33,863 nucleotides of DNA from Rhodobacter sp. (GTDB lineage Bacteria; Pseudomonadota; Alphaproteobacteria; Rhodobacterales; Rhodobacteraceae): contig PNJK01000038.1 of the NCBI GenBank assembly GCA_013821825.1, positions 1 to 33,863 on the forward strand, in the 5' to 3' direction. Below the pieces are notes generated by a model that saw only the letters and a list, made by a program, of their open reading frames with translations, had not been told where the DNA came from and did not search any database. The translations under genes were made by a program, and so were the position numbers. This document shows positions 7,145-33,831 of this stretch, in pieces (positions within the stretch are counted from its first letter, which is position 1; each line of letters starts with the position of its first letter).

Positions 7145-7166
7145 GAACTTACCTTGATGCTAAAGC

Positions 7167-10528: not shown

Positions 10529-10532
10529 CCAG

Positions 10533-10949: not shown

Positions 10950-10983
10950 TCCGATGTTCGGACGCACGATCTGGAGGAAGAAG

Positions 10984-16178: not shown

Positions 16179-17399
16179 ATGACCGAATTTGATATGCTGA
16201 TTCAGCAGACAGGCTGGACTGTGCCTGAGGCGGCGAAAGTGCTGGGGTACTCAGAAGGCCATCTGTACCGCTGGAAGCGGGGCGAAGAGACCCCGAGAGA
16301 AGGCGTTATCAACCTGCTGAAGATGCAGATTGCCGGGCGCAAAGCAGTTCAGAACGACGGGGCATTCACCTTCATCGACCTCTTCGCCGGGATTGGTGGC
16401 CTGCGCAAGGCCATGGAAAGCGCCGGGGGCCGCTGCGTCTTTACGTCGGAGTGGGATGCTTTCGCCCAGAAAACCTATCATGCCAACTTCCCTGACAACC
16501 GGCCAATCGCTGGCGATATCCGCGAAGTGGATGCCGCCGCTATCCCCGAGCATGATGTGCTGGTGGCAGGCTTTCCATGTCAGCCGTTTTCCATCGCCGG
16601 GGTCTCAAAGAAGAACGCCCTCGGGCGGTTGCACGGGTTCCAGGATGAAACACAGGGCACGCTGTTCTTCGATGTACTGCGTGTCCTGATGCACCACCGC
16701 CCGGCGGCGTTCCTGCTGGAAAACGTTAAGAACCTCAAAAGCCATGACAAAGGCCGGACCTTCGAAGTGATCCGGCGCAAGCTGACGGAAGAGCTGGGCT
16801 ATACTTTGCACACCCGGATCATTGATGCCGCCAATTTCGTACCACAGCACCGCGAGCGAATTGTGATGGTCGGGTTCCGGGAAAACACTGGGTTCTCTCA
16901 TGACGATCTGGTCCTGCCGGGCAGGGCAGGTCGGGGTATGCGCGATGTGCTGCACCCGGAGAATGGCTCAGAAGCCCCTGAGAGCCATTTCACGATAGGG
17001 CCTGATGCAAAGGTGAGCGACAAGTACACCCTGACCGATAAGCTCTGGCAGTATCTGCAAGGCTACGCGGCAAAGCACAAAGCAGCGGGCAACGGATTTG
17101 GCTTCGGGCTGGTGGATGGCGACAGCATCTCGCGGACGCTGTCAGCACGCTACTACAAAGACGGATCGGAGATCCTTGTCAGCAGGGGAACCGGTAACAA
17201 TCCACGCCGCCTGACGCCGCGCGAGTGCGCGCGCCTGATGGGCTATGATGACAGCTTCCGCATCCCTGTTTCGGACACGCAGGCCTATAAGCAGTTCGGA
17301 AACTCGGTCGCGGTGCCGGTCTTTGCCGAAGTGGCCCGTCTGATGCGGCCGCATATTCTGGCGCTGACCGAAGGGCCGGGCCTGCGCAAAGTTGGCTGA
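16179..17399 (+). CDS. DNA C5-cytosine methyltransferase with N-terminal HTH
   Basis: It methylates cytosine at carbon 5 to protect host DNA from the adjacent restriction enzyme. Of 406 residues, the first 55 or so form an HTH ([21 protein letters not shown]). The conserved motifs follow in order: [21 protein letters not shown] with the catalytic cysteine, [29 protein letters not shown] and [11 protein letters not shown]. The variable target-recognition region lies between VIII and IX. The HTH probably allows autoregulation, as in some C5 enzymes. ATG 16179 with GGGAG 10 nt upstream is favoured over 16155. A Vsr and an MvaI/BcnI-family enzyme follow, so CCWGG or CCSGG are plausible targets, by inference only. 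Confidence 0.95.
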
Positions 17400-17874
17400 T
17401 GTCCATGACCCTACCACCCGGAGCCGCAACATGGCGGCAATCCGGGGCCGGGACACAAAGCCTGAGCTGATCATCCGCAAGGGGCTTCATGCGCGCGGGT
17501 TCCGGTTCCGGCTTCATGGCCGTGACCTTCCCGGCAGGCCCGATCTGATCTTCCCGAAATATCAGGCGCTGATCTGGGTGCATGGCTGCTTCTGGCACGG
17601 CCATGACTGCCCGATGTTTCATTGGCCGAAAAGCCACGAAGAATTCTGGCGGGCCAAGATCGGGCGTAACCAGGAGAGGGACGCCACCACATGGACAGCC
17701 GCCAGAGCGGGCGGCTGGCGCTGCGGAATCGTCTGGGAGTGTGCGCTGAAGGGCAGGGGACACCTGCCACCCGGTCAGGTCATTGACTCATTGTCCTGCT
17801 GGTTGTCCTCTGATGCAGAAGAATTCTGCATTGAAGGTCAATGGATTGATAACGCCGCTCACCCGCCTGCTTGA
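17392..17874 (+). CDS. vsr: Very short patch repair endonuclease Vsr
   Basis: Vsr nicks next to T:G mismatches that arise when 5-methylcytosine deaminates, limiting mutation at methylated sites. The 160-residue protein begins at TTG 17392, overlapping the methyltransferase stop, giving [19 protein letters not shown] as in family members. The catalytic Asp region PGRPDLIFP, the zinc-binding [13 protein letters not shown] and the downstream GRNQERD segment are all present. An unusual TTG start and the overlap imply translational coupling. Its presence supports the view that the methyltransferase makes 5-methylcytosine. Confidence 0.94.
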
Positions 17875-19189
17875 TCAGATGGCTGCACACGGGGCGGCCC
17901 GCTTCTATGCAAAGCGACTCGCCCCGAATGACAACTCAAAGAACCAAGTTTATCTGGGCGGCGGTTTCGGAGCACTGAACATCATTCCCCATGGATTGGT
18001 CGAGAGTGACGACAGTAGCCGTGCGGGCAGCGTGCGCGACAGGGCCAAGGCCATGGTGCGTTTCTTCTGGCTTGATGATGAAGGCGTGACGCCCGCGCCG
18101 GATGCGCAACTGATCCTCTATCCGAAATATCCTGAAGTGCGGATGTCCGGTTTTCTGCGCGGGGCGGAGCGCGCGCCAAATGTCCTTATGAAATCACGCG
18201 ACGAAGGCCGGGTGCTGTTTTTCGGCATATGCCCGGATGGTCGCGTGCTGGGCCATGTCGTGGCCAGTGACGATCCGGTTGCCCGCGCCTTTGATGCTGC
18301 GGCGCACGGCCTCGATGCAACCGGCGTCTTCCTCGATCTGGAAAAGCTGCGCCAGGGCGGTACTGATCCGAAAGAAGCGCTGCTGGCAGCTCTCCGGCGT
18401 ATCCACACGAAGGGCTGGATCGCATCGCAGAAGATGGGCAGGGCAGGGGTGCCGGAACCCTATAGCGCCCGCAATGGCGGTGGCTATACGCTGGAGGCTG
18501 AGCTGGGAATTTCCCCGAACGGGTACGCTGATCCCGACTTCATGGGCTGGGAAGTAAAGCAATACGGGGTGAGCGACTTCACCAGTTACCGGGCGAAAAG
18601 CCCCGTCACACTGATGACACCGGAGCCGACCGGCGGCCTGTACCGCGACGAAGGCGTTGCCGCGTTCCTGCGCCGCTATGGCTATGCCGACAAGTCGGGC
18701 AAGGCTGACCGCATCAACTTCGGCGGCGTCTATGCCGCCAGCCGTGACTTGCACCCGGAGACCGGTCTAGTGCTGCGGCTGGCTGGATACGATGCTGCCA
18801 CAGGCAAGATCACCGATCTCGATGGCGGGATTGTCCTGCTCGACCGGGACGAGAATATTGCGGCGTCATGGGGTTTTAGAGGCATCATCTCCCATTGGAA
18901 CCGCAAGCACGCCAAGGCCGTCTATGTTCCGTCCCTCATGCAGTTTCCGCCGCCCGAGTACAGCTATGGGGCGGTCGTACAGCTCTGCGAAGGCACTGAC
19001 GTCCTGCTGCTTCTGGCGGCAGTTTCAGCGGGAAGCGTATATTATGATCCAGGCATCAAGATCGAGTCTGCCGGGACAGCAAGGCCTGTGATTAAGCGGC
19101 GCAGCCAGTTTCGGGTAAAACACCATGATCTCAATCAGTTGTACCGAGCAACCCACCTACACGCCATCATCAGTATGCCGGGAGAGTAA
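17813..19189 (+). CDS. MvaI/BcnI-family restriction endonuclease
   Basis: This restriction enzyme completes the R-M operon. Of 458 residues, the C-terminal half carries the family core KGWIASQKMG, GGGYTLEAELG and YADPDFMGWEVKQYG. In the last of these D242 and E247-x-K249 form the likely PD-(D/E)xK metal site. MvaI and BcnI themselves are about 240 residues; the long N-terminal region here is an added domain seen in some relatives. ATG 17813 overlaps the vsr 3' end in another frame; TTG 17783 is an alternative. MvaI and BcnI cut CCWGG and CCSGG, but specificity here cannot be read from sequence. The 3' end overlaps the convergent receiver-like gene by 20 bases. Confidence 0.88.
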   Translation: MQKNSALKVNGLITPLTRLLDQMAAHGAARFYAKRLAPNDNSKNQVYLGGGFGALNIIPHGLVESDDSSRAGSVRDRAKAMVRFFWLDDEGVTPAPDAQLILYPKYPEVRMSGFLRGAERAPNVLMKSRDEGRVLFFGICPDGRVLGHVVASDDPVARAFDAAAHGLDATGVFLDLEKLRQGGTDPKEALLAALRRIHTKGWIASQKMGRAGVPEPYSARNGGGYTLEAELGISPNGYADPDFMGWEVKQYGVSDFTSYRAKSPVTLMTPEPTGGLYRDEGVAAFLRRYGYADKSGKADRINFGGVYAASRDLHPETGLVLRLAGYDAATGKITDLDGGIVLLDRDENIAASWGFRGIISHWNRKHAKAVYVPSLMQFPPPEYSYGAVVQLCEGTDVLLLLAAVSAGSVYYDPGIKIESAGTARPVIKRRSQFRVKHHDLNQLYRATHLHAIISMPGE

Positions 19190-20567
19190 CAATCCCAGGA
19201 CGCGAAATGTATCGTGCATACTCTTGCGTGAGTTCATCCGTGAGCGCCTCGCGCAGGCGATATACAGGCACCCACGTCTTCGTAAGGTTGGGTGGGCAAG
19301 AGAATGATAGATTCTTAAACACTGAGAGTTTTCCGGGGTTCGCAGCATTCGGGAACCGCAGCACCGGCGACTGCCATTCAGATGCGCGACATGGGATACC
19401 TCTGCCAAACTTATCGCCGTTGCCAAGCCACATGGTAGGCTTGTCCGCGCTCTCGCTGCCATCAAGATTGGCAAATGACCACTCTATTCCTAGCAAGTAC
19501 AGAAGTGGTCCAGGCTTTGGTTGAGCTTGATCGCAAGAAGCGCCGATCTGCACCAAACGCAGCTTACAATCAGCCCACTCTCCCGCCTTGGCCCTGAATA
19601 ACTCACCGCGAAGCTGCGTTTCAGAAACTCCAAACTTTTCCTGAAGAGCCTCGTCGACGGCACCAAGTGGAAAGTTGATAACGGAGCCGAGGTCTGTCGC
19701 CTTGATGGAAAGCTTGCCGTCCTCCAAGGTTTGCACGGACGAAAGGTGTATGGCTGTATTCACTGCTGCCTGGGCCGATAGAGAGGGGACTTCCTTTGAA
19801 TCCACCAAAGATTCGTTCCAGTCGAAGTGCCTGCCACTATCCGGATCGTGCACCGCGATACGGTCGGCCAGTATTGGAACGAGTACATGATTAACCGACT
19901 CACGCGGATTATCGCGTGCCTTCTTTGCCCCAGCGCCTGCTTGGGACAGCCGATATAGCACCTTCCCAAGCTCAACCGAGAAGTCAGCGGAGCGACGATT
20001 CTCCAATGGTACAAGATCAACTACCGATCGGAGAACAGCGTCCACCGCCGCAGCACAGTCAGCTTCCCAAGTCATGAGAGCCTTCATCTGCGGATTCTCG
20101 GACATCCGTGTCAGAATGTCCGCTCGCAACTTCGCAGCGTCTATCTCACCTCCAGTGGAGGTATTAATGTAGTCACCCTTCCTCAGCGCGGCAAAGAACG
20201 CAGGTATGAAGCGCGAATCGTCACCGGTAAACCGTTCAAAAACCTCTTTCTTAAAGGCCTCCAACTCCGGTTGCTCGGCCCATAGTATTAATCCGTATGG
20301 CCCGCTATCAGGGCATATCAACTTCTGAATTACCTCTTGCAGCGCTGCAAAGGCAACCTTGTCGCCGGAGCCAAATGTCGCGCCCGTAGTCAAATTCTGA
20401 TCCAAGAACAAAATTCGCGTTCCAGGCAACTGCACCCAATCCGCCACCGTTTCATCCGAGTACAGCTTAGAATGGCAATCCAATCGTAAGGAATCGAGTG
20501 CTCTCTTTAGTCCAACAAGATGATGCTCTTTATCATCTACCAGCACGAATCTTGAATAAATGAACAT
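19170..20567 (-). CDS. Receiver-like domain protein, partner of dual-GHKL kinase
   Basis: A 465-residue protein without a clear named family. Its first 130 residues resemble a response-regulator receiver: VLVDDKEHH places the acidic pair at D11/D12, RILFLDQNL gives a possible phospho-acceptor D56, GLILWAEQP follows at strand 4 (with Ala at the usual Ser/Thr site) and K130 is a candidate conserved lysine. The remaining 330 residues are not recognised, contain no DNA-binding motif that I see, and may be an effector. It starts 2 nt after the stop of the dual-GHKL gene with GAGGA as ribosome site, so the two act as a pair. The DNA is visibly more A/T-rich than the R-M genes next to it, consistent with separate acquisition. 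Confidence 0.7.
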   Translation of the reverse strand: MFIYSRFVLVDDKEHHLVGLKRALDSLRLDCHSKLYSDETVADWVQLPGTRILFLDQNLTTGATFGSGDKVAFAALQEVIQKLICPDSGPYGLILWAEQPELEAFKKEVFERFTGDDSRFIPAFFAALRKGDYINTSTGGEIDAAKLRADILTRMSENPQMKALMTWEADCAAAVDAVLRSVVDLVPLENRRSADFSVELGKVLYRLSQAGAGAKKARDNPRESVNHVLVPILADRIAVHDPDSGRHFDWNESLVDSKEVPSLSAQAAVNTAIHLSSVQTLEDGKLSIKATDLGSVINFPLGAVDEALQEKFGVSETQLRGELFRAKAGEWADCKLRLVQIGASCDQAQPKPGPLLYLLGIEWSFANLDGSESADKPTMWLGNGDKFGRGIPCRASEWQSPVLRFPNAANPGKLSVFKNLSFSCPPNLTKTWVPVYRLREALTDELTQEYARYISRPGIVTLPAY

Positions 20568-20569
20568 TG

Positions 20570-22717
20570 TCAGTCCTCTTGGGGAGAAAACCTTAACGCG
20601 ACAACCGCGCCATCATAGACGTCTGGAACGTCGGTCTCAGATGCCTCCGGAAAGACGAGAGCACCGTCGTTCAACTCCATCACCATATTCGCGTAGTACA
20701 GTCCCATACCCATGCCCTCAGGGCGGCGTGAGTAGAATGGCCGCACCAATTCGGCTGGCGCATCCTGAAAACCGGGACCAGTATCCGCGATAACTATCGC
20801 GGGTCCCCCATCGAAGTCAGACTCAATATTCATGTAGATCGCGCGCCCACTTTCACCTTCTTCCTCCGGCCAGCGCGTCCGCATCCAGAATATAGCATTG
20901 TCGATGACATTAGTGATCGCGCCCAAGGTAAGGCCAAACGAGCATGACACGGTGACACTTGGGGCGTCGTCCTCGACTGCCGGACACTCGAGTCGCACGC
21001 TGTGATGTCGAAACCGTATCCGGTTCAAGTCGCGCGCGCGTTTGACCAATGACCTAAGATCGACCGGCTTCCTGTCCTTCTTCCGTAGCAGGTCCGAGAA
21101 CCCGTCGAGAAGGCGCATCATCTCCTTGACCTGCTCGGCCACCCCATCCATTTCAGGATGCCCTTCTAGGTTGCGGTAAAGTGATTGTATACCTTGCTCA
21201 ATCTCATGAAAGACCACGGCCAAGCTTGTGCCCGAGATGCCTGTTGATAGCAGTCGTTCTTTCATAGAAGAATATTCGTATTCAATACGGTCTAGGAGAG
21301 GATCAATCTGGCCCGAAAGGTGATTCTTACTTGCAATGAGCCGCAACTTTGCCACTGGCTCCATAATGCTCTTAGTCTCAGGGTCTTGAATGTCCCCCAA
21401 GAGTTCACGAATAGCCTTTCGATCTACTTCCCGCTCGCGCTGAAGGGGGTCGATTGCACCTAGCACAATCCTGCGCAAACTATCGTATGCGGCATTCTCA
21501 ATGAAGCCTTCACGGTTAGACTTCTCGACAAGTCCAGAGCTATCCTCTTGATTTATGGAAATATGGCCTACAACGATGTTGCGGCTAAGTCCTTTGGTTG
21601 GATTGTTTACTCGCTTCAGGTCTAGCCCAAGCCAGTCGTTGTTTCGCTCTCCATAGTCATAGACCCGAATTCCATCCCGATATACGCGGATGCCGCCGTT
21701 CTCATCAAGAAAGTCTTTTATAAAACTGGACTCTCCAATCTTTGCAGTAATTTTTGGCGTTAAGTCAAAAACAAAGAACTCTCCCGAGACAGGCCCAACC
21801 CCCTTTAGCATGCCTTGATCTGCAATGACCTTTCGAAGAGTAGTCCCCTGAGCTTTTCCGCTAAATAGTGGATCATCGTCATCGTTTTCGGATGGTGGCA
21901 CCAAAAGCCGAACGTCATTCTCTTCGACATGCCGCGCTTCTCTTCCGATGCCAGGAATCTTTTTGAAATCATATTTGTAGCTAAAGTTTGTGCCGTCGAA
22001 ATGGAAGGAATACTTCCACGGCGCGCGCTTCAGAAGCTCCACAGGGTCGGGTAGGTTTTCTATCCATTGCGGAAAGTCAGGGACTTCAAGCGATGCCACA
22101 AAGTCAGCTCTGCTTTCCTTCCCAAAAGGTGAGGAAATGGATGTGATTTGTCGGTATAGGCGACGCACCTCACCCCGCGTCCAATGGATTTCTCTAAGTT
22201 CGGATATACGAATTCTAGTTCCAGTCGACGCTCCCGTGAAGACTAACGGTGTTCGTACTTCGATATCAACCTTGGCATCCTCGAGAAATTCATGGGCCAT
22301 CATCGCATTCCAGTCTATGCGAACAACCACTTCTTGTTTGTCGACGGCCCTTGTGATCATTTCAATCTTGTTTCCAAGCTTATGAACTGACAACCGGCCT
22401 AGCCCCTTTGAGCCAAGGGGCAGTCGACCTTTCAGTGTTCTGGCCCTTTTCTGAAGCTGTTTCTCCTTGTGGTCGTGGGCGATGACCAACCAGATGTTTC
22501 GCACGATCTCTGGAGACATACCAAAACCGTCGTCGCGAACTGAAATTCGCGGTTCCTTTGTGCCAATTCCCCTTATTTTCACGCGGACATAAGAGGCGTC
22601 GGCGTCGTAGGCATTCTTGACAAGTTCAAATACGGCAAGCCTAGGCGTACCGATCAATTGATCGCCCAGTTGCTGCAGCAACCTAGCTCGAGGCTTGAAG
22701 GTGTCTCTTTCAGTCAT
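20570..22717 (-). CDS. Dual GHKL ATPase / histidine-kinase-like sensor
   Basis: A 715-residue protein with two ATP-binding modules. The N-terminal Hsp90/MORC-like GHKL fold has ELVKNAYDAD (N-box, about 31-40), VRDDGFGM (G1) and GSKGLGRL (G2, about 102-109). A middle transducer-like segment includes IRVYRDGIRVYDYG and KSNREGFIENAAY. The C-terminal histidine-kinase-like module has FHEIEQGIQSL with candidate phospho-His about 504, NVIDNAIFW (N-box), IADTGPGF (G1) and GMGMGLYYANMVM (G2). No transmembrane segment is seen, so it is probably a cytosolic sensor. ATG 22717 is chosen because AAGGA lies 6 nt upstream. It is the first gene of the pair with the receiver-like protein and probably signals to it. 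Confidence 0.8.
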   Translation of the reverse strand: MTERDTFKPRARLLQQLGDQLIGTPRLAVFELVKNAYDADASYVRVKIRGIGTKEPRISVRDDGFGMSPEIVRNIWLVIAHDHKEKQLQKRARTLKGRLPLGSKGLGRLSVHKLGNKIEMITRAVDKQEVVVRIDWNAMMAHEFLEDAKVDIEVRTPLVFTGASTGTRIRISELREIHWTRGEVRRLYRQITSISSPFGKESRADFVASLEVPDFPQWIENLPDPVELLKRAPWKYSFHFDGTNFSYKYDFKKIPGIGREARHVEENDVRLLVPPSENDDDDPLFSGKAQGTTLRKVIADQGMLKGVGPVSGEFFVFDLTPKITAKIGESSFIKDFLDENGGIRVYRDGIRVYDYGERNNDWLGLDLKRVNNPTKGLSRNIVVGHISINQEDSSGLVEKSNREGFIENAAYDSLRRIVLGAIDPLQREREVDRKAIRELLGDIQDPETKSIMEPVAKLRLIASKNHLSGQIDPLLDRIEYEYSSMKERLLSTGISGTSLAVVFHEIEQGIQSLYRNLEGHPEMDGVAEQVKEMMRLLDGFSDLLRKKDRKPVDLRSLVKRARDLNRIRFRHHSVRLECPAVEDDAPSVTVSCSFGLTLGAITNVIDNAIFWMRTRWPEEEGESGRAIYMNIESDFDGGPAIVIADTGPGFQDAPAELVRPFYSRRPEGMGMGLYYANMVMELNDGALVFPEASETDVPDVYDGAVVALRFSPQED

Positions 22718-22794
22718 CACACGTCCTTAGTGGTGATTTTCGGGGTCGCCGTCCACTGCATTGTATTCTTGCACAATACCGCAAGACCTCGTCT

Positions 22795-23531: not shown

Positions 23532-24423
23532 TTACCGCGCTCCTGCCAACGTCAGCATCGCAGCGGCAAATGCCTCTGGGGCTTCTTGGGGCAGGTTGTG
23601 ACCCGCTCCGTCTATGATTCTGCGCTCATAGAGGCCGGTGTAATGCGCGCGGTCGAAATCTTCTTCCGCAGGTGGATCGACCCCATCATCACGTCCCTGA
23701 AGCACGATACATGGGACGGCAATACCAGGCTGTGTGGCCAGACGTTCTTCGATCCCATCATACGTCGGATCACCGGGAATGCCACCAAAGCGGTGTCGGT
23801 AAGAATGTAGCACGATCTCCACAAAATCTGGGTTATCGAGCGAGGCCGCCGTTGCGGCCCAAGTTTCATCGTCGAACCTCCAGCTTGGTGACCAAAGCGA
23901 CCAGATATGGCGGCACAAGTCGTATCTGTTCTGTGTCAGCCCAACCCGCCCCCGTTCCGTGTGGAAATAGTACATGTACCAGTAGCGGGCTTCTTCTACC
24001 GCAGGCGCCGGTTGCCAGGCGTCTGCAATATTTTGAATGTTGTAGCCTTGGCCGCAACTAACGAGGCCGCGCACCCGCTCCCGGCCAAAGTGCCGCCACG
24101 ATACAGGCCGCACGTCCGCCCCAGTCATATCCACCGAGGAAGGCCCGCCTGATCTCAAGCGCGTCCATGAATGCCAAGAGGTCAGCGCCGAGCGCGGCTT
24201 GCTGACCGGAACGCATTGTGTCGGCCGAGAGGAAGCGTGTCGGACCATAGCCGCGCAGATAGGGGACAAGACAGCGAAATCCCCGTCCGGCGAGGGTGCC
24301 GACGACAGCATTGTAGGCACGGGTGTCATAGGGAAAGCCATGCAGCAGGATCACCGGATCAGCGCCTTCCGGCCCAACCTCATGGTAGTGGATATCAAGG
24401 TATCCTGCTTTGATCGACTTCAT
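23532..24423 (-). pseudogene. Frameshifted alpha/beta hydrolase
   Basis: The 5' frame (from ATG 24423, MKSIKAGYLDIHYHEVG) encodes the oxyanion-hole HGFP and the nucleophile elbow GGYDWGG, where Asp is the nucleophile as in epoxide hydrolases and haloalkane dehalogenases. After LWP the frame shifts by one extra G in a GGG run at about 24080-24083. A second frame continues with ERVRGLVSCGQGYN to the acid GRDDGVDPP and the catalytic His in GAGHNLPQEAP, ending at 23532. All catalytic residues survive across the two frames, so the break is recent or a homopolymer sequencing error. It is divergent from the RidA gene. The substrate is unknown. Confidence 0.82.
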
Positions 24424-25057: not shown

Positions 25058-26103
25058 GGTGAAAAACTCGGCCTACCATATGTTGTGTCGGCTACTTTGG
25101 AGCCGATTTAACCCGCTGAATCGGATTAGTTTTCAGTTGAAGTGAAGGGGGGCTTCGAAAGCCGTCCCGGCCTCACGCCGGGACCAGTTTCGCCAGACGT
25201 TTTAGGTTCTGCGCAGTGGCGGCGAGGAGGAATTCGTCCTCCGCTCCGCGCAAGCCGCGCAATCGGGGGCGGGTGAAGCCAAGATTGCGCTTCAGGTGGG
25301 CGAACAGCATCTCGACCTTTTTCCGCTTTCGGCGGCTCACTGTGAACTTTTCGGTCCGCGACAAGTCGCGGGCGATCTGACGGGCGGCTTCGTCCATGTG
25401 ACGGGTGACGGTCCGGGCGGGCGCAGTGGTGCAGGCTTTTCGGATCGGACAGGCCCCGCAGGTTTCCGTATCTGCGCTATACCGTTTGATCCGCATCGTC
25501 GGGTCAACCTTTCGAAGGCGCATCTCGTGCCCCTCCAGACAGGTGAAGCTGTCACGGTCGGCATCATAGGCGAAATGGCTCAGGTCATATTTGCCGTCCG
25601 TCTGATGCTGGCGGTCTAATACAGGGACGTGCGGTGCAATCTCGCGCTTGAGCAGCCATGCCAGAAAGGGGCCGGTGTCGCCGTCTGCGAACCGACCGTG
25701 GCGGTTCTTGGAAAAGGTCGACCGGTCTGGCACCCGGCCCTCTAGGCCGAGACGGCAAAACCAGCGATACGCCAAATTGAGATGGACCTCGTCAACCAGC
25801 CGCCGCTCTGACCGGATACCGTAAAGATAGCCGATCAGCAGCATGCGGATCATCAGCTCGGGATCAACCGAGGGTCGGCCCGTATGGCTGTAGAGCACCT
25901 CAAGCTCGTGGCGGATCGCGCCGAAGTCGAGCAACCAGTCGATCCGGCGCAAAAGATGATCAGCGGGGACGTGATCCTCGATACGGAAGCGGTAAAACAG
26001 CGCTTCCTGAACCTCTTGCGACCCATCATCGCCTGATCCTCCAGCCCGCCTGGATCAATTGAATCAGTCGGTTAGGCCCAGATCAAGCGAAGAGTTTTTC
26101 ACC
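25058..26103 (-). mobile_element. Decayed IS1182-like insertion sequence
   Basis: A perfect 12-bp terminal inverted repeat, GGTGAAAAACTC at 25058-25069 and its reverse complement at 26092-26103, encloses one transposase remnant. The element is about 1.05 kb, much shorter than full IS1182 relatives because the transposase has an internal deletion. No obvious target duplication flanks it: the four bases on either side differ. A stem GTCCCGGC / GCCGGGAC at 25164-25184 covers the transposase stop codon. Confidence 0.78.
25173..26029 (-). pseudogene. IS1182-family transposase, internally deleted and frameshifted
   Basis: The N-terminal part (EALFYRFRIEDHVPADHLL, then TGRPSVDPELMIRML, RSERRLVDEVHLNLAYRWFC and FSKNRHGRF) and C-terminal part (GACPIRKACT, KKVEMLFAHLKRNLGFTR, EFLLAATAQNLKRLA) match IS1182-type transposases. 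They are joined near 25695 with about 150-200 middle residues missing, including the first catalytic Asp regions. At the 5' end the ATG pair at 26024-26029 is out of frame by one base with the coding part that follows. The enzyme cannot be active. The element could only move if a full-length relative acts in trans. Confidence 0.85.
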
Positions 26104-26141: not shown

Positions 26142-27143
26142 CTAAACGATTGCGCCAAGTGACGCATCGCCATGTGCGACCGTCGCAGTGTGCGCAGGCC
26201 GCAGGAAGTCCAGTACCCAGCAGTTCGCGCAGGGCTCAGGAATATCTCCATCACGCAGGGCTCCGGCCATGGCGTTGCGGCGGGCGACAATGCCCGGGGC
26301 GGGATCTTTGCCGACGCGCCCGAACGACCATCGAACATCCTTGACATGGCAGCAGGGCATGAAATCGCCCTCGGCCGAGATGTAGCCACCCTGAACCAGC
26401 CATGGGCAAGTCGGCGGCCCTGACCAGAGGTCTTCGAAAAGGCGCGGGTAGAAGCCAACGTCGCGTCCCGACTTGTCGATGGTGTCGTCCTCGTCAAAGC
26501 GCTTGCGGAGCGCTTCGACCTTGCCCGTCTCGTCGGCCGACAGCATCTCCGAGACCATCAGCGGTGTATAGGCGCTGACATAGGTCTGCTGATCCTGCAG
26601 GCCCTGGAACCAGATACCGCCGTCAAGGCCAAGGCTGCGGTAAAGCGCGATGATGTCTTCCGCCTCGGCCAGGGTGCTTTTCAGAACGGTGACGTTCAGG
26701 CCGATGACCGGACGCCTGCGCCCGCTTGCATTGCGCGCATCACGCAGGCGGGCAATGCCTTCAAGGACCTTGCCGAATGCGCCACCCCGTATCGTTTTGA
26801 ACCGTGCGGCATCGGGCGATTCCAGCGAGACGCCCACGCGCTCGATGGGAAGGGAGAGGATACGCTCCACCCGCTCGTCGCTAAGCAAGCTACCGTTTGT
26901 GATCATCGAGATCGATGCCCCAGCGCCCGCCGCCCCTTCGGCGATCCGGAAGAAGTTACGGTTCAGAAGCGGTTCGCCCTCGCCCTGCAACTCGACAGCC
27001 TGAAGGGTTGGAAAGGCCCGGAAGACGGCGTCGGAGATTGCCAGCGGCAAATCGGTCTGGTGCATCGTCCGACCGACGCAGAAGCCGCAGGTGTAGTTGC
27101 AGCGCGTCGTTGGTTCGATCTGAAGGAACTTTACCTCGGTCAT
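26142..27143 (-). CDS. Radical SAM enzyme with SPASM-like C-terminus
   Basis: A 333-residue radical SAM protein. The [4Fe-4S]/SAM site is RCNYTCGFC with cysteines 15, 19 and 22. GEGEPLLN (the glycine-rich SAM-binding strand) and MITNGSLL follow. The C-terminus has a cysteine set, CPW, then MPCCHVKD, then CANCW, that fits a SPASM or twitch domain holding further iron-sulfur clusters. SPASM enzymes commonly modify peptides or proteins. It is the last gene of the seven-gene operon; its ATG shares ATGA with the stop of the SPL-like gene. The substrate is unknown. The absence of a signal or membrane segment places it in the cytosol. Confidence 0.87.
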   Translation of the reverse strand: MTEVKFLQIEPTTRCNYTCGFCVGRTMHQTDLPLAISDAVFRAFPTLQAVELQGEGEPLLNRNFFRIAEGAAGAGASISMITNGSLLSDERVERILSLPIERVGVSLESPDAARFKTIRGGAFGKVLEGIARLRDARNASGRRRPVIGLNVTVLKSTLAEAEDIIALYRSLGLDGGIWFQGLQDQQTYVSAYTPLMVSEMLSADETGKVEALRKRFDEDDTIDKSGRDVGFYPRLFEDLWSGPPTCPWLVQGGYISAEGDFMPCCHVKDVRWSFGRVGKDPAPGIVARRNAMAGALRDGDIPEPCANCWVLDFLRPAHTATVAHGDASLGAIV

Positions 27144-28057
27144 CGCGCATCTCCTTGCTGGGGTGGTTTGAGAGGGGCTAGCGGGGCGGGGCTGCCTGAT
27201 TTGCGCAGGGTCGAGGGATCGGCATGGTCGATGACCCGGCCCAGCCGGAGTTCCAGCCCATGCTTGTCCAGAAGTCGGACGACGAGTTCTGAGAGCCTTT
27301 GCCGCCGAGCGGGGTCGGCATGCGCGACGACAAAGCGCGCGGCTTCGGTCTGATCGACCGACATCACCGATTGCAGGCGGAGCATCAGAGGCCTGGCCAC
27401 GTTTAGAAGCTCAGCATAGACGAAGCGGACCCCGGTCTGCGCTACGCGGCCGATCAAGGCATCCATCGCATCGGGCGCATCGACGTAATGCGTCATCAGT
27501 GGCCCGAGGAAGGCATAGGTCGGGACACCCCTTTGTGAAAGTTCACGCAGCAGGTCAAGCCGCGCCGAGTTGCGCGGTGCGCGCGCCTCGTAGATGCGGC
27601 CGATGGCGTCATCATCGGTGGTGACGGTCACGCCGACCTCGGCATGTGGCAGCGCTGACAGAAGCTCGGCATCGCGCAACAGAAGGGGGCTTTTCGTCAG
27701 AATAGACACTCGGCCCGGATAGGACCGGCGGACAAGCTCGCCCAGAATGCCGCGCGCGAGTTCGTATTTGCCTTCGGGGCCTTGCCAGGCGTCGGTGACC
27801 GAGCTGAGAAACAGCGTCGGGCCGGTTGAAAAACGGGAATGCGCGATCTCTTTGCGGAAGAGCTCGACCGCGTTGGTTTTGACGTAGACATAGTTGCCCC
27901 AGTCGTCGCGCGACTTGCCAACGAACCGCCCCATGAAGGAGGCGTAGCAATAGGAACAGGCGAAGGAGCAGCCGGTATAGGGGTTGATCACGTAATCCGT
28001 ATCCGGCAACCGGCTTGGCACGATGATCGAAGAGGCTTCCTGTTCGACGATCTGCAT
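27140..28057 (-). CDS. Radical SAM enzyme, SPL/Rv2578c-like family
   Basis: A 305-residue radical SAM protein with NPYTGCSFACSYCYA (cysteines 30, 34 and 37). That arrangement, with a following Tyr, is typical of the spore photoproduct lyase-like SplB/Rv2578c group. Downstream ILTKSPLLLRD and VTVTTDDD match the same group. True DNA photoproduct repair is not implied: these relatives are of mixed or unknown function. ATG 28057 is chosen, as the longer frame would run into the previous gene. It begins 10 nt after the regulator stop and overlaps the next gene by ATGA. It may make a second modification in the pathway. Confidence 0.83.
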   Translation of the reverse strand: MQIVEQEASSIIVPSRLPDTDYVINPYTGCSFACSYCYASFMGRFVGKSRDDWGNYVYVKTNAVELFRKEIAHSRFSTGPTLFLSSVTDAWQGPEGKYELARGILGELVRRSYPGRVSILTKSPLLLRDAELLSALPHAEVGVTVTTDDDAIGRIYEARAPRNSARLDLLRELSQRGVPTYAFLGPLMTHYVDAPDAMDALIGRVAQTGVRFVYAELLNVARPLMLRLQSVMSVDQTEAARFVVAHADPARRQRLSELVVRLLDKHGLELRLGRVIDHADPSTLRKSGSPAPLAPLKPPQQGDAR

Positions 28058-28067
28058 GGCGGCCTCG

Positions 28068-29165
28068 CTAGATGAGCGCTGCAAGGTGGCGGTTGCTCGC
28101 GAAGGCCACCGCGTATCCGCCGGGCACCGGCTGCAGAAGGCCCTGCGCGGCAAGCGCTTCGGCGCTGGCGCGCTGGTCCGGCCCGATCACTGCAAAACGT
28201 CCCAGTCGGGCGACAAGGTCGAAGACCGTGTGATCGGCGGCACGCGCAATCTCGGACCGCGGCGTCTCGACATGGTCGATGACATGGCCGATCACCTCGG
28301 CAAAGGGGACCGCTGCTGCGGCAAGCGGAGCGAGCTTGCGAAGAATGTGGCGCTCTACCACGGCCGGGTTCCGGCTTTGCCGCGCGGAAAATCCGGCCGT
28401 CCCGCTATCGGTTCCGAATATGAACAGGGTCGTATCATCGACAAGGAACATCGAGCCGGAAAAGGCCGCCGCAGGCGCGATGCGAAGGTCGATGCGCATA
28501 TCCTTGGTATCGCGCGTCACGATGTCGATGCCATGGACAAAAATCTCGTCTACCGTGGCGTAGCGGGTATAGCGCACGCCCCTTGCGCAACAGGCCACGA
28601 TGGCGGGCCAGAAGAGCGCTGTTTGCGGCAGGCGTGGCGGGCGTTCGGCCGACACGACGCTGGTCCGCGCATCGTAAAGTGCGCCGCTGCAGGCCAGCGC
28701 GAACTGGTCGGTGTCGTCAAAGTTCTTGCGGTACCAAAACGGTGACTTGCCCTGGTTCGGGACAAGGGCGATGGCCGCCGAGCGGATGGCAGCGATGCCC
28801 GCTGCGCGCGCCTCGCCCGGCATTGGCATCACGTGAAGCCCCGAGACAGCATCGGTTGCTGTGCGCCAAAGCGTGTCGAACATCAGCGCGTCCCAGACCT
28901 GCGCTGGCGATATCGCGACAAAGCGGGTTCGTTCGGTGTCGCGCTGTTCGCTGATCAGGCACAGGAGCACCAGCTTGCGCAGCGCAGCCCGCAGGCAGTC
29001 GGGCTCTATGCGGGTCGCTATGAGCAACTGCTGGAATGAGACCGAGCCACAGCGAAGGATGTGGCTGTAGAGAACGGCATCGTCTTTGCGAAAGCCGAAA
29101 GCAACCATGCTGCCGCGCAGCTGTTGCTCGGCCTCGGACAGGGGCTGGGCATATCCGGCGGTCAT
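28068..29165 (-). CDS. TrmB-like winged-helix regulator
   Basis: This 365-residue protein begins with a winged HTH (about 15-90: FGFRKDDAVLYSHILRCGSV, then FQQLLIATRIEPDCLRAALRKL) like the TrmB family. A middle domain, with FGTDSGT and LVDDTTLFIFGTD, recalls the PLD-like effector domain of TrmB proteins. TrmB regulators are best known from archaea and some bacteria and bind sugars. It overlaps the glycosyltransferase stop by ATGA and precedes the SPL-like gene by 10 nt, so it is embedded in the operon rather than divergent. Probable role: feedback control of the cluster. The assignment of the C-terminal part is tentative. Confidence 0.62.
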   Translation of the reverse strand: MTAGYAQPLSEAEQQLRGSMVAFGFRKDDAVLYSHILRCGSVSFQQLLIATRIEPDCLRAALRKLVLLCLISEQRDTERTRFVAISPAQVWDALMFDTLWRTATDAVSGLHVMPMPGEARAAGIAAIRSAAIALVPNQGKSPFWYRKNFDDTDQFALACSGALYDARTSVVSAERPPRLPQTALFWPAIVACCARGVRYTRYATVDEIFVHGIDIVTRDTKDMRIDLRIAPAAAFSGSMFLVDDTTLFIFGTDSGTAGFSARQSRNPAVVERHILRKLAPLAAAAVPFAEVIGHVIDHVETPRSEIARAADHTVFDLVARLGRFAVIGPDQRASAEALAAQGLLQPVPGGYAVAFASNRHLAALI

Positions 29166-30169
29166 TGTATCACCTCTGTGGCCGGGGCTGCCCGGACCGG
29201 CCGCGAGCCCGATTTTGTGGTTGCCGCCGTGCTCCAGTCGACGCCGACGATCCCGGACGCGAGCCTTGCCTCGGCCGCAAGGTTCGCCCGGTGGCGCATG
29301 CGGTTGAAGGCATGCCAGCGAAGCAGGTCCCGCAGACCTGCCAGCAGCCGCGGCCGCGGGGCAAAGCGGGCATCGCAGTGGTAGCGCCAGTTGAAATGGC
29401 GGCGGAGTTCGTCGGCATGTTCGGGAAATGCGGCGTAAGCAGCCAGAACGCCATACCGGATGCGCACCTGCTGGCGGAAATATTCGGCGCGACGGCAGGC
29501 GGTGCGAAAGTGGATCGTGCTGCCGTGCGGAAAGACGATTGGCAGGAAGCCGGATTGCCGGAAGAGGTCACGGTGCCGCAGGTAGTAGACATTGCAGACA
29601 TAGGCGTCATCGGCAATGCCCGTCGCGTCTGGGGGAAGCTCGGGGAAGGTCGCGGCAAAGGCGCACATGCTGCCGCCGATGCAGAAGCGCGGTGCCTCTT
29701 CGGCGGGCGCGAAGGCCAGCCGGGCGACCCAGTCGGTCACTCCGGTCCAGCCTGTGGGGGTAACGATGTGGCGCGACCCGACCAGGCCTTCGACGCCGAG
29801 GCGTTCGCGAAGGGCAACAAGGGTGTAGGCATTGATGCGCAGGGTGCCGGGTGCATAGTCCTGATCGTCGTCAACGATCTGGACGATCTCGCTGCCCCCG
29901 GCGCGCGCCTGCGCAACGCCGTGGTTGATGGCGTTGTTCTTCCCCGGCGTGGTCAGCACCAGCAGATTGGACGGGACCGGGCTGGTCCTGAGGGCGTCGC
30001 GAAGCGCGCGTTCGTCCTCGGCGGCGCTGAGGTTCAGAACCACCGTCAACTGGACCTCATGCGCTTTGACGAGGTCCGTCAGGGCGCGGCACAGAGCGGG
30101 AAATGTCGCACCGAAATAGCCGACGCAGCGAAAGGTCGGGACGATGACGGATACCTTGGCCATGTTCAT
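29162..30169 (-). CDS. Family 2 glycosyltransferase
   Basis: A 335-residue GT-A fold glycosyltransferase. VSVIVPTF opens the nucleotide-binding strand. GKNNAINHGVAQAR and QIVDDDQD (D100-D102, the metal/sugar-nucleotide DxD) follow, and CIGGSMCAF with DDAYVCN forms the acceptor side. No transmembrane helices are evident, so it is cytosolic or peripheral. ATG 30169 shares ATGA with the MATE stop; a second ATG at 30163 gives MAKVSV. In the operon it probably glycosylates the product or an intermediate. It could also take part in a surface polysaccharide, but the rest of the operon does not look like one. Confidence 0.88.
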   Translation of the reverse strand: MNMAKVSVIVPTFRCVGYFGATFPALCRALTDLVKAHEVQLTVVLNLSAAEDERALRDALRTSPVPSNLLVLTTPGKNNAINHGVAQARAGGSEIVQIVDDDQDYAPGTLRINAYTLVALRERLGVEGLVGSRHIVTPTGWTGVTDWVARLAFAPAEEAPRFCIGGSMCAFAATFPELPPDATGIADDAYVCNVYYLRHRDLFRQSGFLPIVFPHGSTIHFRTACRRAEYFRQQVRIRYGVLAAYAAFPEHADELRRHFNWRYHCDARFAPRPRLLAGLRDLLRWHAFNRMRHRANLAAEARLASGIVGVDWSTAATTKSGSRPVRAAPATEVIQ

Positions 30170-31524
30170 GCTCCGGCAGGTCTATCGAGGACGGTCGAGC
30201 TAAGGCGGGTCACAGCATTCCAGCGCAAGACCATGACCGCCGCGCGGATGGTTTCGTCAATACACAGTGCCAGCCAGATGCCGACGACGCCCAACCCCGC
30301 CGGCATTGCCAGCGCATAGGCCAACGGCACCCCAAGCCCATAGAGGAGCGCAAGACTTGCCAGCACCGGGAACCGGCTGTCGCCGCGCGCGACAAGCGCC
30401 CAGCAGGTGGTATTGTAGACGGCCTTTGCCGCTTCGGTCGGGATGGCGATCAGCAGCATCCAGCGTGCAGCCGACAGGATTGCCGGATCGTCCGTGAAAA
30501 CGCCGATCAGAAGGTTGCTGACGGTTAGCATTGCAAGGGTGATCAGGGCCGCGCCCGCCGCACCGATGCGATTGGCGCTGGCCACGACGGCACGCGCTCC
30601 GGCTTCGTTGCCAGCGCCGGTCTCGTATGAGGTAAGAATCTGCGCCGCGATGGCGATGGACATCGACCAGGTCAGAACGAACATTTCGATGTTGAGCACG
30701 TAGATGCGCGTGGCAAGTGCAGTGATGCCCAGGGACGCAACGAGGACGCTGATGACCAGCCATTGAATCTGGATAGCGGCGGGCTCGATCGCCGTCGGCA
30801 CCGCCTTGGCCCAAATGCGGCGCAGCATTCCGGTCCCGCTGGGTGGCTGAAGCAGCGCGCGCCTGTCGGGGATCAGGGTCCAAAGCACCAGCGCGTTGAC
30901 CGCATAGGCAACCACGGTGGCCCCGGCGATCAGCGCCACAAGCTGCGCGACCGGAAGGCGATGCTGGAAAAACTCCAGCGCTGCAGCGTTCAATGCAGCG
31001 TTCACGATCACGGCCAAGAGCGCGGCTTTCATCTGCGGGCGCGAATTTTGGCCGGAGAGGTGAAGGGCGGCAAACGTATGCTTCAACGACAGGAAGGCCA
31101 CGCCGGGCGCCATGACTGCCATATACATGGTGGCGTGCAGTGCCGCTTCGTCGGCAAGTCCAAGCAGGCGGGGAACGTAGGCCGACGTGGCGAAAAGGAT
31201 CGCCCCTGCGCCCAAGCCAAGGCCGACGCCGTTCCAGAAAGTCGTCCGCCGCGCAAGCGCAACCGCCTCTTGATTGCCCTCTCCGTCAAGATGTGCGCTG
31301 ACGACCGATCCGGCTTGGGCCACCTGTCTGAGGATCATCGCCAAAAGACCGAACAGCGGGAACAAGGCGCCCACGGCCCCGGCAGGAAGATCTCCCAGTT
31401 GGCTGAGGAAGTAGCTGTCGGTGACAAAGGTCGTGAACAAGAGCGCAAGGTCTATGCCGATCGGCCAAGACAAGGCGCCAAGACGCGCGGCGTAGCTGCG
31501 TTCGGATGAAGCGTTCCGCGTCAT
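30166..31524 (-). CDS. MATE-family efflux transporter
   Basis: This 452-residue inner-membrane protein with about 12 hydrophobic segments matches multidrug and toxin extrusion (MATE) transporters: PIGIDLALLFTTFVTDSYFL near the start and FPLFGLLAMILRQVAQ. A second-half repeat begins around AKAVPTAIEPAAIQIQWLV. ATG 31524 has AGGAG 8 nt upstream and overlaps the previous stop by ATGA; the much longer open frame that extends upstream is a shadow of the MFS-like gene. In this operon it most likely exports the finished product or gives self-protection. Confidence 0.88.
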   Translation of the reverse strand: MTRNASSERSYAARLGALSWPIGIDLALLFTTFVTDSYFLSQLGDLPAGAVGALFPLFGLLAMILRQVAQAGSVVSAHLDGEGNQEAVALARRTTFWNGVGLGLGAGAILFATSAYVPRLLGLADEAALHATMYMAVMAPGVAFLSLKHTFAALHLSGQNSRPQMKAALLAVIVNAALNAAALEFFQHRLPVAQLVALIAGATVVAYAVNALVLWTLIPDRRALLQPPSGTGMLRRIWAKAVPTAIEPAAIQIQWLVISVLVASLGITALATRIYVLNIEMFVLTWSMSIAIAAQILTSYETGAGNEAGARAVVASANRIGAAGAALITLAMLTVSNLLIGVFTDDPAILSAARWMLLIAIPTEAAKAVYNTTCWALVARGDSRFPVLASLALLYGLGVPLAYALAMPAGLGVVGIWLALCIDETIRAAVMVLRWNAVTRLSSTVLDRPAGA

Positions 31525-32531
31525 GACGCCCTTCTCCTGAAAGGTCGGCTGCGTTGCTTGACAGCCTGGCCGACAAGGGCCGCGGTCATCAACGCGAAGA
31601 CCGCGGCGATGAAGAACAGGTTCCCCGCCGCCCCGCCAACCGCAAGCCAAAGGCAGGCGACCAGCGCACCCAGCGCATGGCCGGCGTTCTCGGTTCCCGT
31701 CAAGGCGGCTTCGTCGAAACCAAATCGCTCGCGCGCGAGGCCTGTCAGATACACAACCATGCCACCGAAGAACCCTGTCAGTATCCACAAGGTCAGCCAG
31801 GCCCAGCCTCCCGGGGTCGCGACGGCAAGCAGCACAAGCACGAAAGCCAACACGATATGGCCCCCGATCACCAGCGTTTCGGCGGGAAGTCGTCGGCCGG
31901 CCAGATGCGGCGCCGAGATATATGAAATCCAGCCCATGACAAAACCGATGGTACCGTAGACAGGTCCGTAGGTCATCGCCAGCACGACGACCACAACGGC
32001 ATAGTAGCTGAAATAGTGCATCTGGTGGGCGACAAGCGCCGCTGTGATCGTTGGCACCGGCCGCAGTCCGCCAGTCCGGCGGGTTGGCTGATGCGACCAA
32101 AGCACAGCACACCCAAGGGCCAGCACGGCGAGGGCTGCGACCGGCAATGCGCCCGGCAGCGTCATTAGCGGTGCGGTCAGGAAACCAGCCACGCGGAATG
32201 ACCGCTTCAGTGTGGTCGGGACGGTTGCCTTGCCCAGGGCCATGCGCGACAGGTTCACGACCGCGCTTAGCACCGCAACAAGTGCCAACTGGATGGCCAT
32301 GGTCGGGACAGCGATCACCGCAAGGGCCAGCGCTGCTCCACACAGGACCAATGCGCGGGTGGCTGATCGGGTCATTGTGACCGGCAGCGGCACCAATGTC
32401 CCGATCTGGTAGGCCAAGGCCGTCAGCGCCGCAGCCATGAAGGGGCCAGGACCAAGGGCAGCCGCAAGGATGATGCCCAACTCCAGAAAGCCGGACAGCA
32501 CACTGAAGGCAAGGAATGCGGCAAGTCGCAT
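31521..32531 (-). CDS. MFS-like membrane protein
   Basis: A 336-residue protein with about 10 hydrophobic stretches, for example FLELGIILAAALG, ALALAVIAVPTMAIQLALV, FYAVVVVVLAMTYG-like and LFFIAAVFALMTAALV near the end, in a layout like major facilitator transporters. I see no specific substrate motif, and it is shorter than the usual 400 residues. It starts 8 nt after the radical SAM stop and overlaps the MATE start by ATGA. A second transporter beside the MATE gene may handle precursor uptake, self-immunity or export. Confidence 0.68.
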   Translation of the reverse strand: MRLAAFLAFSVLSGFLELGIILAAALGPGPFMAAALTALAYQIGTLVPLPVTMTRSATRALVLCGAALALAVIAVPTMAIQLALVAVLSAVVNLSRMALGKATVPTTLKRSFRVAGFLTAPLMTLPGALPVAALAVLALGCAVLWSHQPTRRTGGLRPVPTITAALVAHQMHYFSYYAVVVVVLAMTYGPVYGTIGFVMGWISYISAPHLAGRRLPAETLVIGGHIVLAFVLVLLAVATPGGWAWLTLWILTGFFGGMVVYLTGLARERFGFDEAALTGTENAGHALGALVACLWLAVGGAAGNLFFIAAVFALMTAALVGQAVKQRSRPFRRRAS

Positions 32532-32539
32532 GGCCGTGT

Positions 32540-33721
32540 CTATCCGCTGGCCAACTGGAACAGGCGCAGGCTAAGCTGCTCGCGCGCTGCCGGATGGGCA
32601 GGAGAGCCCGCAAGCACCGGATCGGCCGTGTCGAATATCCGGTCAAAGGGATCGGGAAGTGACGAGTTCAGGTACGAAAAGATCTTGCAGTGGCCCCAAT
32701 TCTCGCCTGCGCGGCCGTGGAAGGCCTGGGCCTTCGGACTGTTCAGGATCACCGTCATGGGATCGCGGGCAAGGTTGCCCAGCACCCATTCCGGTCCGAG
32801 CGGCCGACCGGTTCCACCGATGGCCCAGGGCGAAGCAAGAAGGGTGCCGTCTGCCATCAACCCAAAGCTTTCGGTCACCAGATCACAGGGGTTGCCGCCC
32901 GAGCTGCTTGGCAGCCCGACGAGATGCTTCAGCGCGCACTGCACCTTGACGACCGGCCAGCCATGCTTTTCTTCAAGGCGCTTCAGGACGCCAATGGCGA
33001 AGCGGTAGTCCTCAGCCTGCGGGATTTCATGTTCCAAGAGTGTCCCCCGTCCGACCGGGAACAGCCGCATCACAAGAAGCTTGCCGATCCCTGCATCATG
33101 CAGCGTCATGTAAAGCCGCGTCAGGTGGTCTTCGTTCAGGATGGCCCGGCTCAGGGGCGTTTCGGCCCGGGTGGGGATTCCCACCTGAACGAAGGCGCGA
33201 GCCTTCTTCAGGTTTCCCGCCGCGTATCCTTCTGGACGCAGCGCCACGTCTTCCAGTGTTTCGGCATCGAACGTGAAGTTGTACTCGCCGATATGGGGGG
33301 CGATCTCGGCGGCGCGGAAGGCGCTTGACCCGGCACCCGTCACTGTCAGCGTGACATTGGCCTTGCCAAGTCGCGAGGCGGCATACTGCAATAGCGTGAA
33401 ATTCTCGCGCACCGACAAGGCGTCACCGCCCGACGCGTCGATCCGCGCCTGATAGCCCGACAGGTGGTCGATGACACGGCGCTTGGCGTCAAGGTCAAGT
33501 TCCAGACCCTTGGATTGCCGGTGTTTGGCGGCAACGTCGTAGATCGACTGGTCCTTCGTGACCTGAATTTCCTCAAATGTTTCCAGCCCGTCGGAGCGGA
33601 TTTCGATCCGGCCGCCGCGCTTCTTGACATGGACGGCATCGACACAACACACGGCACAGTCCCAAGGACAGACAAGTGTCGAATTATAGATGATGTCGAT
33701 CTTCTTTGGTGTGTCAGACAT
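32540..33721 (-). CDS. Radical SAM enzyme, CPWDCAVC type
   Basis: First gene of the operon: 393 residues with the SAM/iron-sulfur motif CPWDCAVC (cysteines 18, 22 and 25) near the N-terminus, after an Ile/Tyr-rich first strand (KIDIIYNST). A glycine-rich SAM-binding segment, DASGGDALSV, follows. The C-terminal part has further cysteines (NPCDLVTE and WGHCKIF) that could hold an auxiliary cluster. I recognise the superfamily but not the reaction. ATG 33721 is preferred to GTG 33763 because GGAG at 33730-33733 lies 8 nt upstream and 33763 lies inside the terminator. Expression probably depends on readthrough of that terminator. Confidence 0.85.
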   Translation of the reverse strand: MSDTPKKIDIIYNSTLVCPWDCAVCCVDAVHVKKRGGRIEIRSDGLETFEEIQVTKDQSIYDVAAKHRQSKGLELDLDAKRRVIDHLSGYQARIDASGGDALSVRENFTLLQYAASRLGKANVTLTVTGAGSSAFRAAEIAPHIGEYNFTFDAETLEDVALRPEGYAAGNLKKARAFVQVGIPTRAETPLSRAILNEDHLTRLYMTLHDAGIGKLLVMRLFPVGRGTLLEHEIPQAEDYRFAIGVLKRLEEKHGWPVVKVQCALKHLVGLPSSSGGNPCDLVTESFGLMADGTLLASPWAIGGTGRPLGPEWVLGNLARDPMTVILNSPKAQAFHGRAGENWGHCKIFSYLNSSLPDPFDRIFDTADPVLAGSPAHPAAREQLSLRLFQLASG

Positions 33722-33731: not shown

Positions 33732-33783
33732 CCAAAAACAAAAAGACCCCAGGAAACAACCACTTCGGTTGTTTCCTGGGGTC
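33732..33783 (-). terminator. Strong intrinsic terminator before the radical SAM operon
   Basis: A perfect 17-bp stem, GACCCCAGGAAACAACC (33745-33761) with its complement at 33767-33783, has a 5-nt loop. On the minus strand it is followed by TTTTTGTTTTTGG. The ribosome site of the first radical SAM gene (GGAG) begins within the end of this run. It therefore ends, or partly ends, transcription of whatever lies to the right, and acts as an attenuator for the operon. Confidence 0.88.
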
Positions 33784-33831
33784 TCTGCCTTACGGCGTCG
33801 GCTGGGCCGATTCTCCCCTAGATTGTTATCT
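33784..33831 (-). promoter_or_regulatory. Possible structured leader preceding the terminator
   Basis: On the minus strand this stretch contains TCGGC-CCA-GCCGA and GCC-GTAA-GGC hairpins. It also has a GGGG (33815-33818) that could pair with the ACCCC of the terminator's 5' arm on the same strand (33779-33783). Such pairing would compete with the terminator, as in attenuators or riboswitches. It matches no riboswitch class I can name. The structure is speculative. Confidence 0.3.

Follow-up and report, generated by a model that had tools for sequence, protein, structure and literature searches.

A tightly coupled operon with three unlike radical SAM enzymes on a Rhodobacter contig: a possible pathway for the synthesis and export of a small product

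Radical S-adenosylmethionine (SAM) enzymes share operons or pathways with exporters and glycosyltransferases in at least two described systems. The tryglysin operon, wgkABCD (PMC8092268), belongs to the ribosomally synthesized and post-translationally modified peptides (RiPPs) of the radical SAM type and, by the NCBIfam names of the proteins, holds a radical SAM/SPASM enzyme together with a MATE exporter. In the mycofactocin pathway, a radical SAM enzyme and a glycosyltransferase act together (PMC7491314). Here we describe a seven-gene operon that shares traits with both and is located on the minus strand, from 33721 to 26142, of a contig of Rhodobacter sp. (PNJK01000038.1, assembly GCA_013821825.1). 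This contig was analysed over its whole length of 33,863 bases and is called the window below; the genes are numbered 1 to 7 in the direction of transcription. Five of them recur together in a distant bacterium with a genome of approximately 1.4 Mb, designated G843.

Pfam and NCBIfam profile searches were performed with all seven proteins; for gene 7, every statement on NCBIfam refers to the best 25 of its 52 matches. None of the proteins reaches a curated NCBIfam cut-off. Like the tryglysin operon, the window operon contains a SPASM enzyme and a MATE transporter, but it encodes in addition two radical SAM enzymes of other subfamilies and a glycosyltransferase, no precursor was found, and the scores for WgkB (36.5 bits, cut-off 650) and WgkD (28.1 bits, cut-off 510) stay far below their thresholds. 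With mycofactocin it shares the pairing of a radical SAM enzyme and a glycosyltransferase, but gene 7 scores 30.2 bits against an MftC cut-off of 265, and other mycofactocin proteins are named in none of the profile matches of the seven genes. A third likeness concerns viperins and BlsE, an enzyme of nucleoside-antibiotic formation: the nearest PDB sequence to gene 7 is BlsE (E 6e-4), the structure model of gene 1 lies nearest to viperin structures, and gene 7 matches the PADLOC pVip model, which has no given cut-off, with 56.2 bits. Against the NCBIfam viperin cut-off of 180, however, gene 7 reaches 43.3 and the G843 homologue of gene 1 only 25.1 bits, and a nucleotide kinase is absent among the seven operon genes. 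Gene 6 resembles a protein of the so-called mobile pair B, but its operon partners differ from the two-gene arrangement that this name implies. Gene 6 also falls short of the PA0069 family (123.3 of 360 bits), as does its G843 homologue of spore photoproduct lyase (30.4 of 400 bits), and the only clear family assignment to a described transporter is that of gene 3, whose MatE match exceeds the gathering score. The first-pass annotation of this DNA had not recognised the operon as a described pathway, and in the titles and abstract openings of the literature searched the gene set is indeed named nowhere among the matches listed.

Operon architecture and the five-gene core

The seven open frames contain no internal stops. 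From gene 1 to gene 7, their junctions measure +8, -4, -4, -4, +10 and -4 nt, values that assume ATG starts at 31524 for gene 3 and at 28057 for gene 6. Thus, all six junctions lie within 10 nt and the unit is even tighter than the first-pass annotation had stated: the coupling it described is confirmed, while its count of five junctions out of six has to be raised to six. The seven-gene operon is real. Its genes have GC contents of 61–66%, with 73–79% at third positions, and encode three unlike radical SAM enzymes, a putative GT2-type glycosyltransferase, a MATE transporter, a polytopic membrane protein and, with gene 5, a protein without family. In Pfam, genes 3 (MatE), 6 (Radical_SAM) and 7 (Radical_SAM and SPASM) score above, and genes 4 (Glycos_transf_2) and 1 (SPASM) below the gathering score; genes 2 and 5 have no match in either Pfam or NCBIfam.

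In G843, tblastn locates genes 1, 2, 6, 4 and 3, in that order, within 5.3 kb, at identities of 42% (E 2e-96), 26% (2e-19), 38% (1e-68), 22–31% (1e-22) and 25% (3e-34), respectively. Genes 5 and 7 gave no significant match in the 30 kb analysed at this locus (best E for gene 5, which was sought there only, 0.58), and across the whole of G843 gene 7 has a single partial match of 30% on another contig. Hence the co-occurrence of all seven genes, which the first-pass annotation had proposed as a check, is not found at the second locus; five of the seven are linked in this one distant genome. Genes 1, 2, 3, 4 and 6, without 5 and 7, constitute a core of conserved linkage.

Both copies of this core fit mobility. 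In G843 the operon segment, after which a tRNA-Gln gene follows, has a GC content of 26.5%, compared to 33–35% in its flanks and 31% over the surrounding 20 kb; the window copy is located on a plasmid-like contig beside an insertion sequence. Large repetitive autotransporter-like proteins, recognised by eye, are encoded downstream of the G843 operon (L019, 15846–18797; L020, 6–1757).

Among the genomes sampled, few carry gene 1. It was detected in one of 390 genomes of the order (its own; five other members of the genus were empty), in two of 385 of the class (its own and G843) and in one of four of the family of G843. A two-row alignment of gene 1 from the window and G843, termed A1, retrieved one of 398 genomes of the phylum (again its own) and one of four of the order of G843, and gene 5 was likewise found in one of 398 genomes of the phylum, its own. 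As the large taxonomic groups were represented by samples, these counts do not show absence elsewhere. A1 found nothing in four genomes with gene 7 relatives (L003, L009, L010 and L011) or in 210 sampled Gammaproteobacteria, but neither set included a genome with a known match and both scans are therefore uninformative. Three of 179 Bacillota genomes gave weak, generic A1 matches (E 5e-6 to 5e-4) in pairs of neighbouring radical SAM-type frames; these were rejected as orthologues, since tblastn revealed gene 7-like matches only, plus one MATE match 1.6 kb past the pair at one of the three loci. Scans of viral contigs with genes 1, 5, 7 and A1 led nowhere, alignment A2 gave one match of 27%, and gene 1 matched none of the phages searched.

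The proteins and the relatives of gene 7

The cysteine motifs CPWDCAVC (gene 1), CSFACSYC (gene 6) and CNYTCGFC (gene 7), together with the different profiles matched, confirm that the operon encodes three separate radical SAM subfamilies, as had been proposed from the motifs. Gene 1 (32540..33721) is assigned to the superfamily by its CX3CX2C motif (CPWDCAVCC), an SGGD stretch, the 42% identical G843 homologue and the PDB matches of a low-confidence structure model. Three SPASM-like C-terminal cysteines (C262, C279 and C345) are kept in that homologue. Profile matches are weak (SPASM 17.3 bits at a cut-off of 21.5, and 16.9 bits for the homologue; TIGR04053 24.4 bits at a cut-off of 395), and a match to Pfam Radical_SAM is absent. 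The AlphaFold model has a mean pLDDT of only 48. In a Foldseek comparison with the PDB it gave 32 matches at E ≤1e-3, the top ones being mostly radical SAM folds, with viperins first, followed by lipoyl synthase, BlsE (rank 14) and NifB. Identity to the viperin and BlsE structures is only 10–15%, and an aldolase at rank 22 and a triosephosphate isomerase just outside E 1e-3 have nearly equal scores. The support from the model thus ends at a barrel of the radical SAM kind.

For gene 6 (27140..28057), the ATG at 28057, 10 nt past gene 5, is the best start, and a longer TTG frame from 28153 is disfavoured. Its Radical_SAM score is 41.7 bits (cut-off 29.5). The protein and its 39% identical G843 homologue match the PA0069, Rv2578c and mobile-pair-B models best, with 99–123 bits (121.8 bits for the homologue on rSAM_PA0069) against cut-offs of 360–430, which places gene 6 near, but outside, all three families as curated. 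The weak match to spore photoproduct lyase is confined to the G843 protein; window gene 6 has none at E ≤0.1.

Gene 7 (26142..27143), the accessory radical SAM/SPASM enzyme, exceeds the cut-offs of both Radical_SAM (57.7 bits) and SPASM (25.5 bits). A genome scan with this gene revealed nine loci; five, the gammaproteobacterial L003–L007, have 40–42% identity. In an alignment comprising the window, L003, L004, L005, L007 and L015, but neither L006 nor the more distant L008–L011, all six rows keep CX3CX2C, GEGEPL and the C-terminal CC and CX2C pairs. In L004, L005 and L007, the gene 7 homologue is directly preceded by an open reading frame (ORF) that resembles a glycosyltransferase, as judged by a shared GWELG start, and in L005 a sub-threshold Pfam match also points to a glycosyltransferase; in L006 this position is likewise occupied by an ORF, and L003 has none of that kind. 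Gene 7 relatives of 25–27% identity also lie between annotated glycosyltransferase genes on two Methylobacterium plasmids, and a Methyloprofundus plasmid carries a 32% homologue beside genes of the lipopolysaccharide (LPS) transport type. The wide family to which gene 7 belongs is thus often associated with sugar chemistry, which fits, rather than shows, a tailoring role on a glycosylated product.

None of these relatives represents the same system. The 13–21 kb stretches L003–L011 contain none of the other six genes at a tblastn E of 1e-3, and these genes were not found in L015–L017 either, where the gene 6 match in L015 is at chance level (E 0.11). The neighbourhoods have features of their own. 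In L004, L005 and L007, at approximately 4300–11000, similar exported proteins are encoded upstream and accompany the glycosyltransferase-like gene. FG-GAP repeats are recognised in these proteins by Pfam in L005 only; L005 also has a GMC oxidoreductase, and L004 a DRL oxidoreductase. On the Methyloprofundus plasmid (L015, 308–5465), a replication initiator of the RPA family, as in the window, lies 3 kb from the gene 7 homologue.

The remaining proteins include the putative transport and sugar-transfer components. Gene 3 (30166..31524) belongs to the MATE family (MatE 118 bits, cut-off 24.9) and has a 25% identical homologue in the G843 operon; it remains under the cut-off of TIGR00797 (115.4 against 147.4 bits) and weakly matches NCBIfam models of multidrug MATE proteins. 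Gene 2 (31521..32531) encodes, as judged by its hydrophobic segments, a polytopic membrane protein of no known family, and its G843 homologue likewise stands beside gene 1. Of the two exporters that had been annotated, only gene 3 is supported by a profile; gene 2 is a membrane protein without a family match, for which a second exporter or a self-protection function would be a guess. Gene 4 (29162..30169) is a putative GT2-type glycosyltransferase with a DDD motif and zero transmembrane segments predicted by hydropathy. It matches Glycos_transf_2 with 18.8 bits, under the cut-off of 23.3, which the N-terminal piece of its G843 homologue exceeds with 30.3 bits. Gene 5 (28068..29165) gave a non-significant match to a SarR fusion (E 0.39) and a structure model that is unusable (pLDDT 36); a winged-helix-like regulator is our guess on reading the sequence.

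Possible function of the operon

We tentatively favour, while holding it to be somewhat short of probable, that the operon is a horizontally acquired biosynthesis-and-export unit for a small, diffusible product, for which a glycosylated small metabolite is the best reading. A small-molecule pathway with export is preferred to a RiPP on account of the tight junctions, the core of five genes, the signs of mobility at both loci and the failure to find a precursor. We also counted in its support the matches of gene 7 to BlsE and of the gene 1 model to viperin, and the occurrence of distant gene 7 relatives near glycosyltransferase-like or LPS-type transport genes. Judged from the gene classes, the two radical SAM enzymes of the core (genes 1 and 6) would act in turn on a metabolite common to every cell, such as a nucleotide, sugar or amino acid, because hardly any other substrate would be available from a 1.4-Mb genome. 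A sugar would then be added by the glycosyltransferase (gene 4), and the MATE protein (gene 3), with gene 2, would export the product. The radical SAM/SPASM enzyme (gene 7) and the possible regulator (gene 5) would be additions of the window version that tailor or control the product. The earlier proposal of a cluster that makes, glycosylates and exports a product thus stands as a reading of the gene classes and of the five-gene linkage, without the peptide nature it had tentatively suggested for the product. A bolder version, which we regard as a long shot, envisages that the exported product is an antimetabolite of a new class: gene 1 would act on a common nucleotide or sugar with chemistry like that of viperin or BlsE, gene 6 would add another radical step, and the product would be glycosylated and exported by the MATE protein. 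The five genes would form a mobile cassette, exchanged between bacteria of ordinary and of small genome size, with the SPASM enzyme as optional tailoring.

Several observations weigh against a small-molecule pathway. The matches to viperin and BlsE are weak, and matches of this kind are general in that part of the superfamily. Only one other genome among those searched carries the core, and there two of the five operon genes are frame-interrupted, the halves of the glycosyltransferase lying in different frames. In gene 1 of G843, stops directly precede the point where the alignment begins, and the cysteine motif is not preceded by a usual start codon; these interruptions may reflect decay or sequence error, or gene 1 may have an unusual start. 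The MATE protein and the glycosyltransferase are just 22–31% identical to their G843 counterparts, a level at which a MATE match is not specific. In addition, the window assembly consists of 234 contigs with an estimated contamination of 4.95%, so that the contig could be misplaced in this genome. Finally, the contig breaks off 142 nt before gene 1, so that the gene list may be incomplete and may lack a precursor gene.

This contig end is also where a RiPP reading, which we consider rather unlikely, would place its precursor: a peptide encoded beyond the end would undergo modification by the radical SAM enzymes and glycosylation, and the MATE protein would export it in a tryglysin-like manner. 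A 20-bp hairpin with a T-run (33742..33786, minus strand), a putative terminator or attenuator, lies close to the contig end, 20 nt ahead of the gene 1 start codon, and would then stand between the enzyme genes and a precursor gene with high expression. The hairpin is strong: the 164-nt stretch containing it has a fold z of -7.3, and none of 200 shuffles was as stable. Rfam gave five sub-threshold matches on the hairpin region (E 0.03 to 1.5). The structure may terminate a gene further upstream or serve as an attenuator. The SPASM score of gene 7 and the weak matches of gene 3 and its G843 homologue (39.4 bits) to the WgkD MATE model point in the same direction. Against a RiPP, the comparison of 99 short frames of 12–90 amino acids from the window end with 94 from the G843 segment, excluding frames open at a contig end, revealed no precursor ORF common to both loci. 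Its sole match at E <0.01 joins frames that are, by their coordinates, antisense to both MATE genes, and the other six are identities of 4–5 residues or, in one case, a 22-residue match at E 0.5. At G843, only approximately 110 nt separate an opposite-strand gene from the first aligned codon of gene 1. No peptidase is named in any Pfam or NCBIfam match of the seven proteins, and the enzyme most likely to modify a peptide, the SPASM protein, was not found at the G843 locus, its partial match lying on another contig. That no precursor ORF was found at either locus weakens the idea of a radical SAM-modified peptide, which the first-pass annotation had put forward and which these results leave unsupported.

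MATE proteins are related to the flippases of the MOP superfamily. It is therefore conceivable, although in our judgement unlikely, that the enzymes serve to make or alter a sugar that is lipid-linked or part of the envelope, which gene 2 and the MATE-fold protein would flip across the membrane. A weak O-unit flippase match of gene 3 (15.8 bits, cut-off 300) and the LPS-transport genes adjoining the Methyloprofundus homologue of gene 7 agree with such a cell-surface role. Gene 3, however, is clearly a member of the MatE family, gene 4 lacks a predicted membrane segment, and no profile of a polymerase, ligase or undecaprenyl-phosphate transferase was matched by the seven proteins. An even more doubtful alternative is a cassette for resistance or detoxification, in which a compound from the environment would be inactivated by the enzymes and pumped out of the cell. 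The plasmid-like setting with restriction and other defence-type genes and the presence of two membrane proteins, one of them with weak multidrug MATE matches, are compatible with this, but two to three radical SAM enzymes and a glycosyltransferase generally resemble a synthetic rather than an inactivating machinery.

If the small-molecule pathway is correct, a minimal set of five genes would make a new exported metabolite from ordinary cell chemistry, and a set this small could be expressed in a laboratory host to test for the product directly. A function would also be suggested for the radical SAM proteins near PA0069 and Rv2578c, which NCBIfam names by locus tags only.

Plasmid setting and neighbouring genes

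The contig encodes an RPA replication initiator (293 bits), a ParA-type ATPase, SbcC, SbcD and a resolvase. No end overlap that would indicate circularity was found. Pieces of the stretch from 9500 to 33863 match 37 plasmid records, none of which covers more than 80% of the query; among 15 of these 37, the best derive from Gemmobacter, Tabrizicola and Paracoccus, all Rhodobacterales. Replication and partition genes together with this backbone similarity indicate that the contig is probably a plasmid of a Rhodobacterales bacterium. The operon DNA itself has no match in the plasmid collection, nor do genes 1, 2, 4 and 5. Gene 7 matches 41, gene 6 57 and gene 3 six plasmid records, all at less than 60% identity; neighbourhoods were viewed for three of the gene 7 matches. 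At 38 nt beyond the stop codon of gene 7 lies the insertion sequence (25058..26103), with a DUF772/DDE transposase and 12-bp perfect inverted ends. Rfam found nothing at gathering score between 24000 and 33863.

Several neighbouring genes are of the defence type. On the plus strand, 11597–13465 matches positions 60–668 of the 1538 in PADLOC TmtA with 442 bits, overlaps the start of the RPA frame at 13312 and looks like a truncated defence gene. A cytosine methylase, Vsr and an MvaI/BcnI endonuclease follow in a row (16155–19189, plus strand), a region in which Gemmobacter plasmid DNA is 88.7% identical over 3 kb. Near these restriction genes, the minus strand (19170–22720) encodes a GHKL-ATPase protein of 716 amino acids, then a protein of 465 amino acids without a Pfam or PADLOC match, possibly a defence pair. 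Closer to the insertion sequence (23532–24423, minus strand), an alpha/beta hydrolase match is limited to the upstream frame 24058–24423; the overlapping frame 23532–24341, which has no family match, seems to be its continuation, and the gene looks frame-interrupted.

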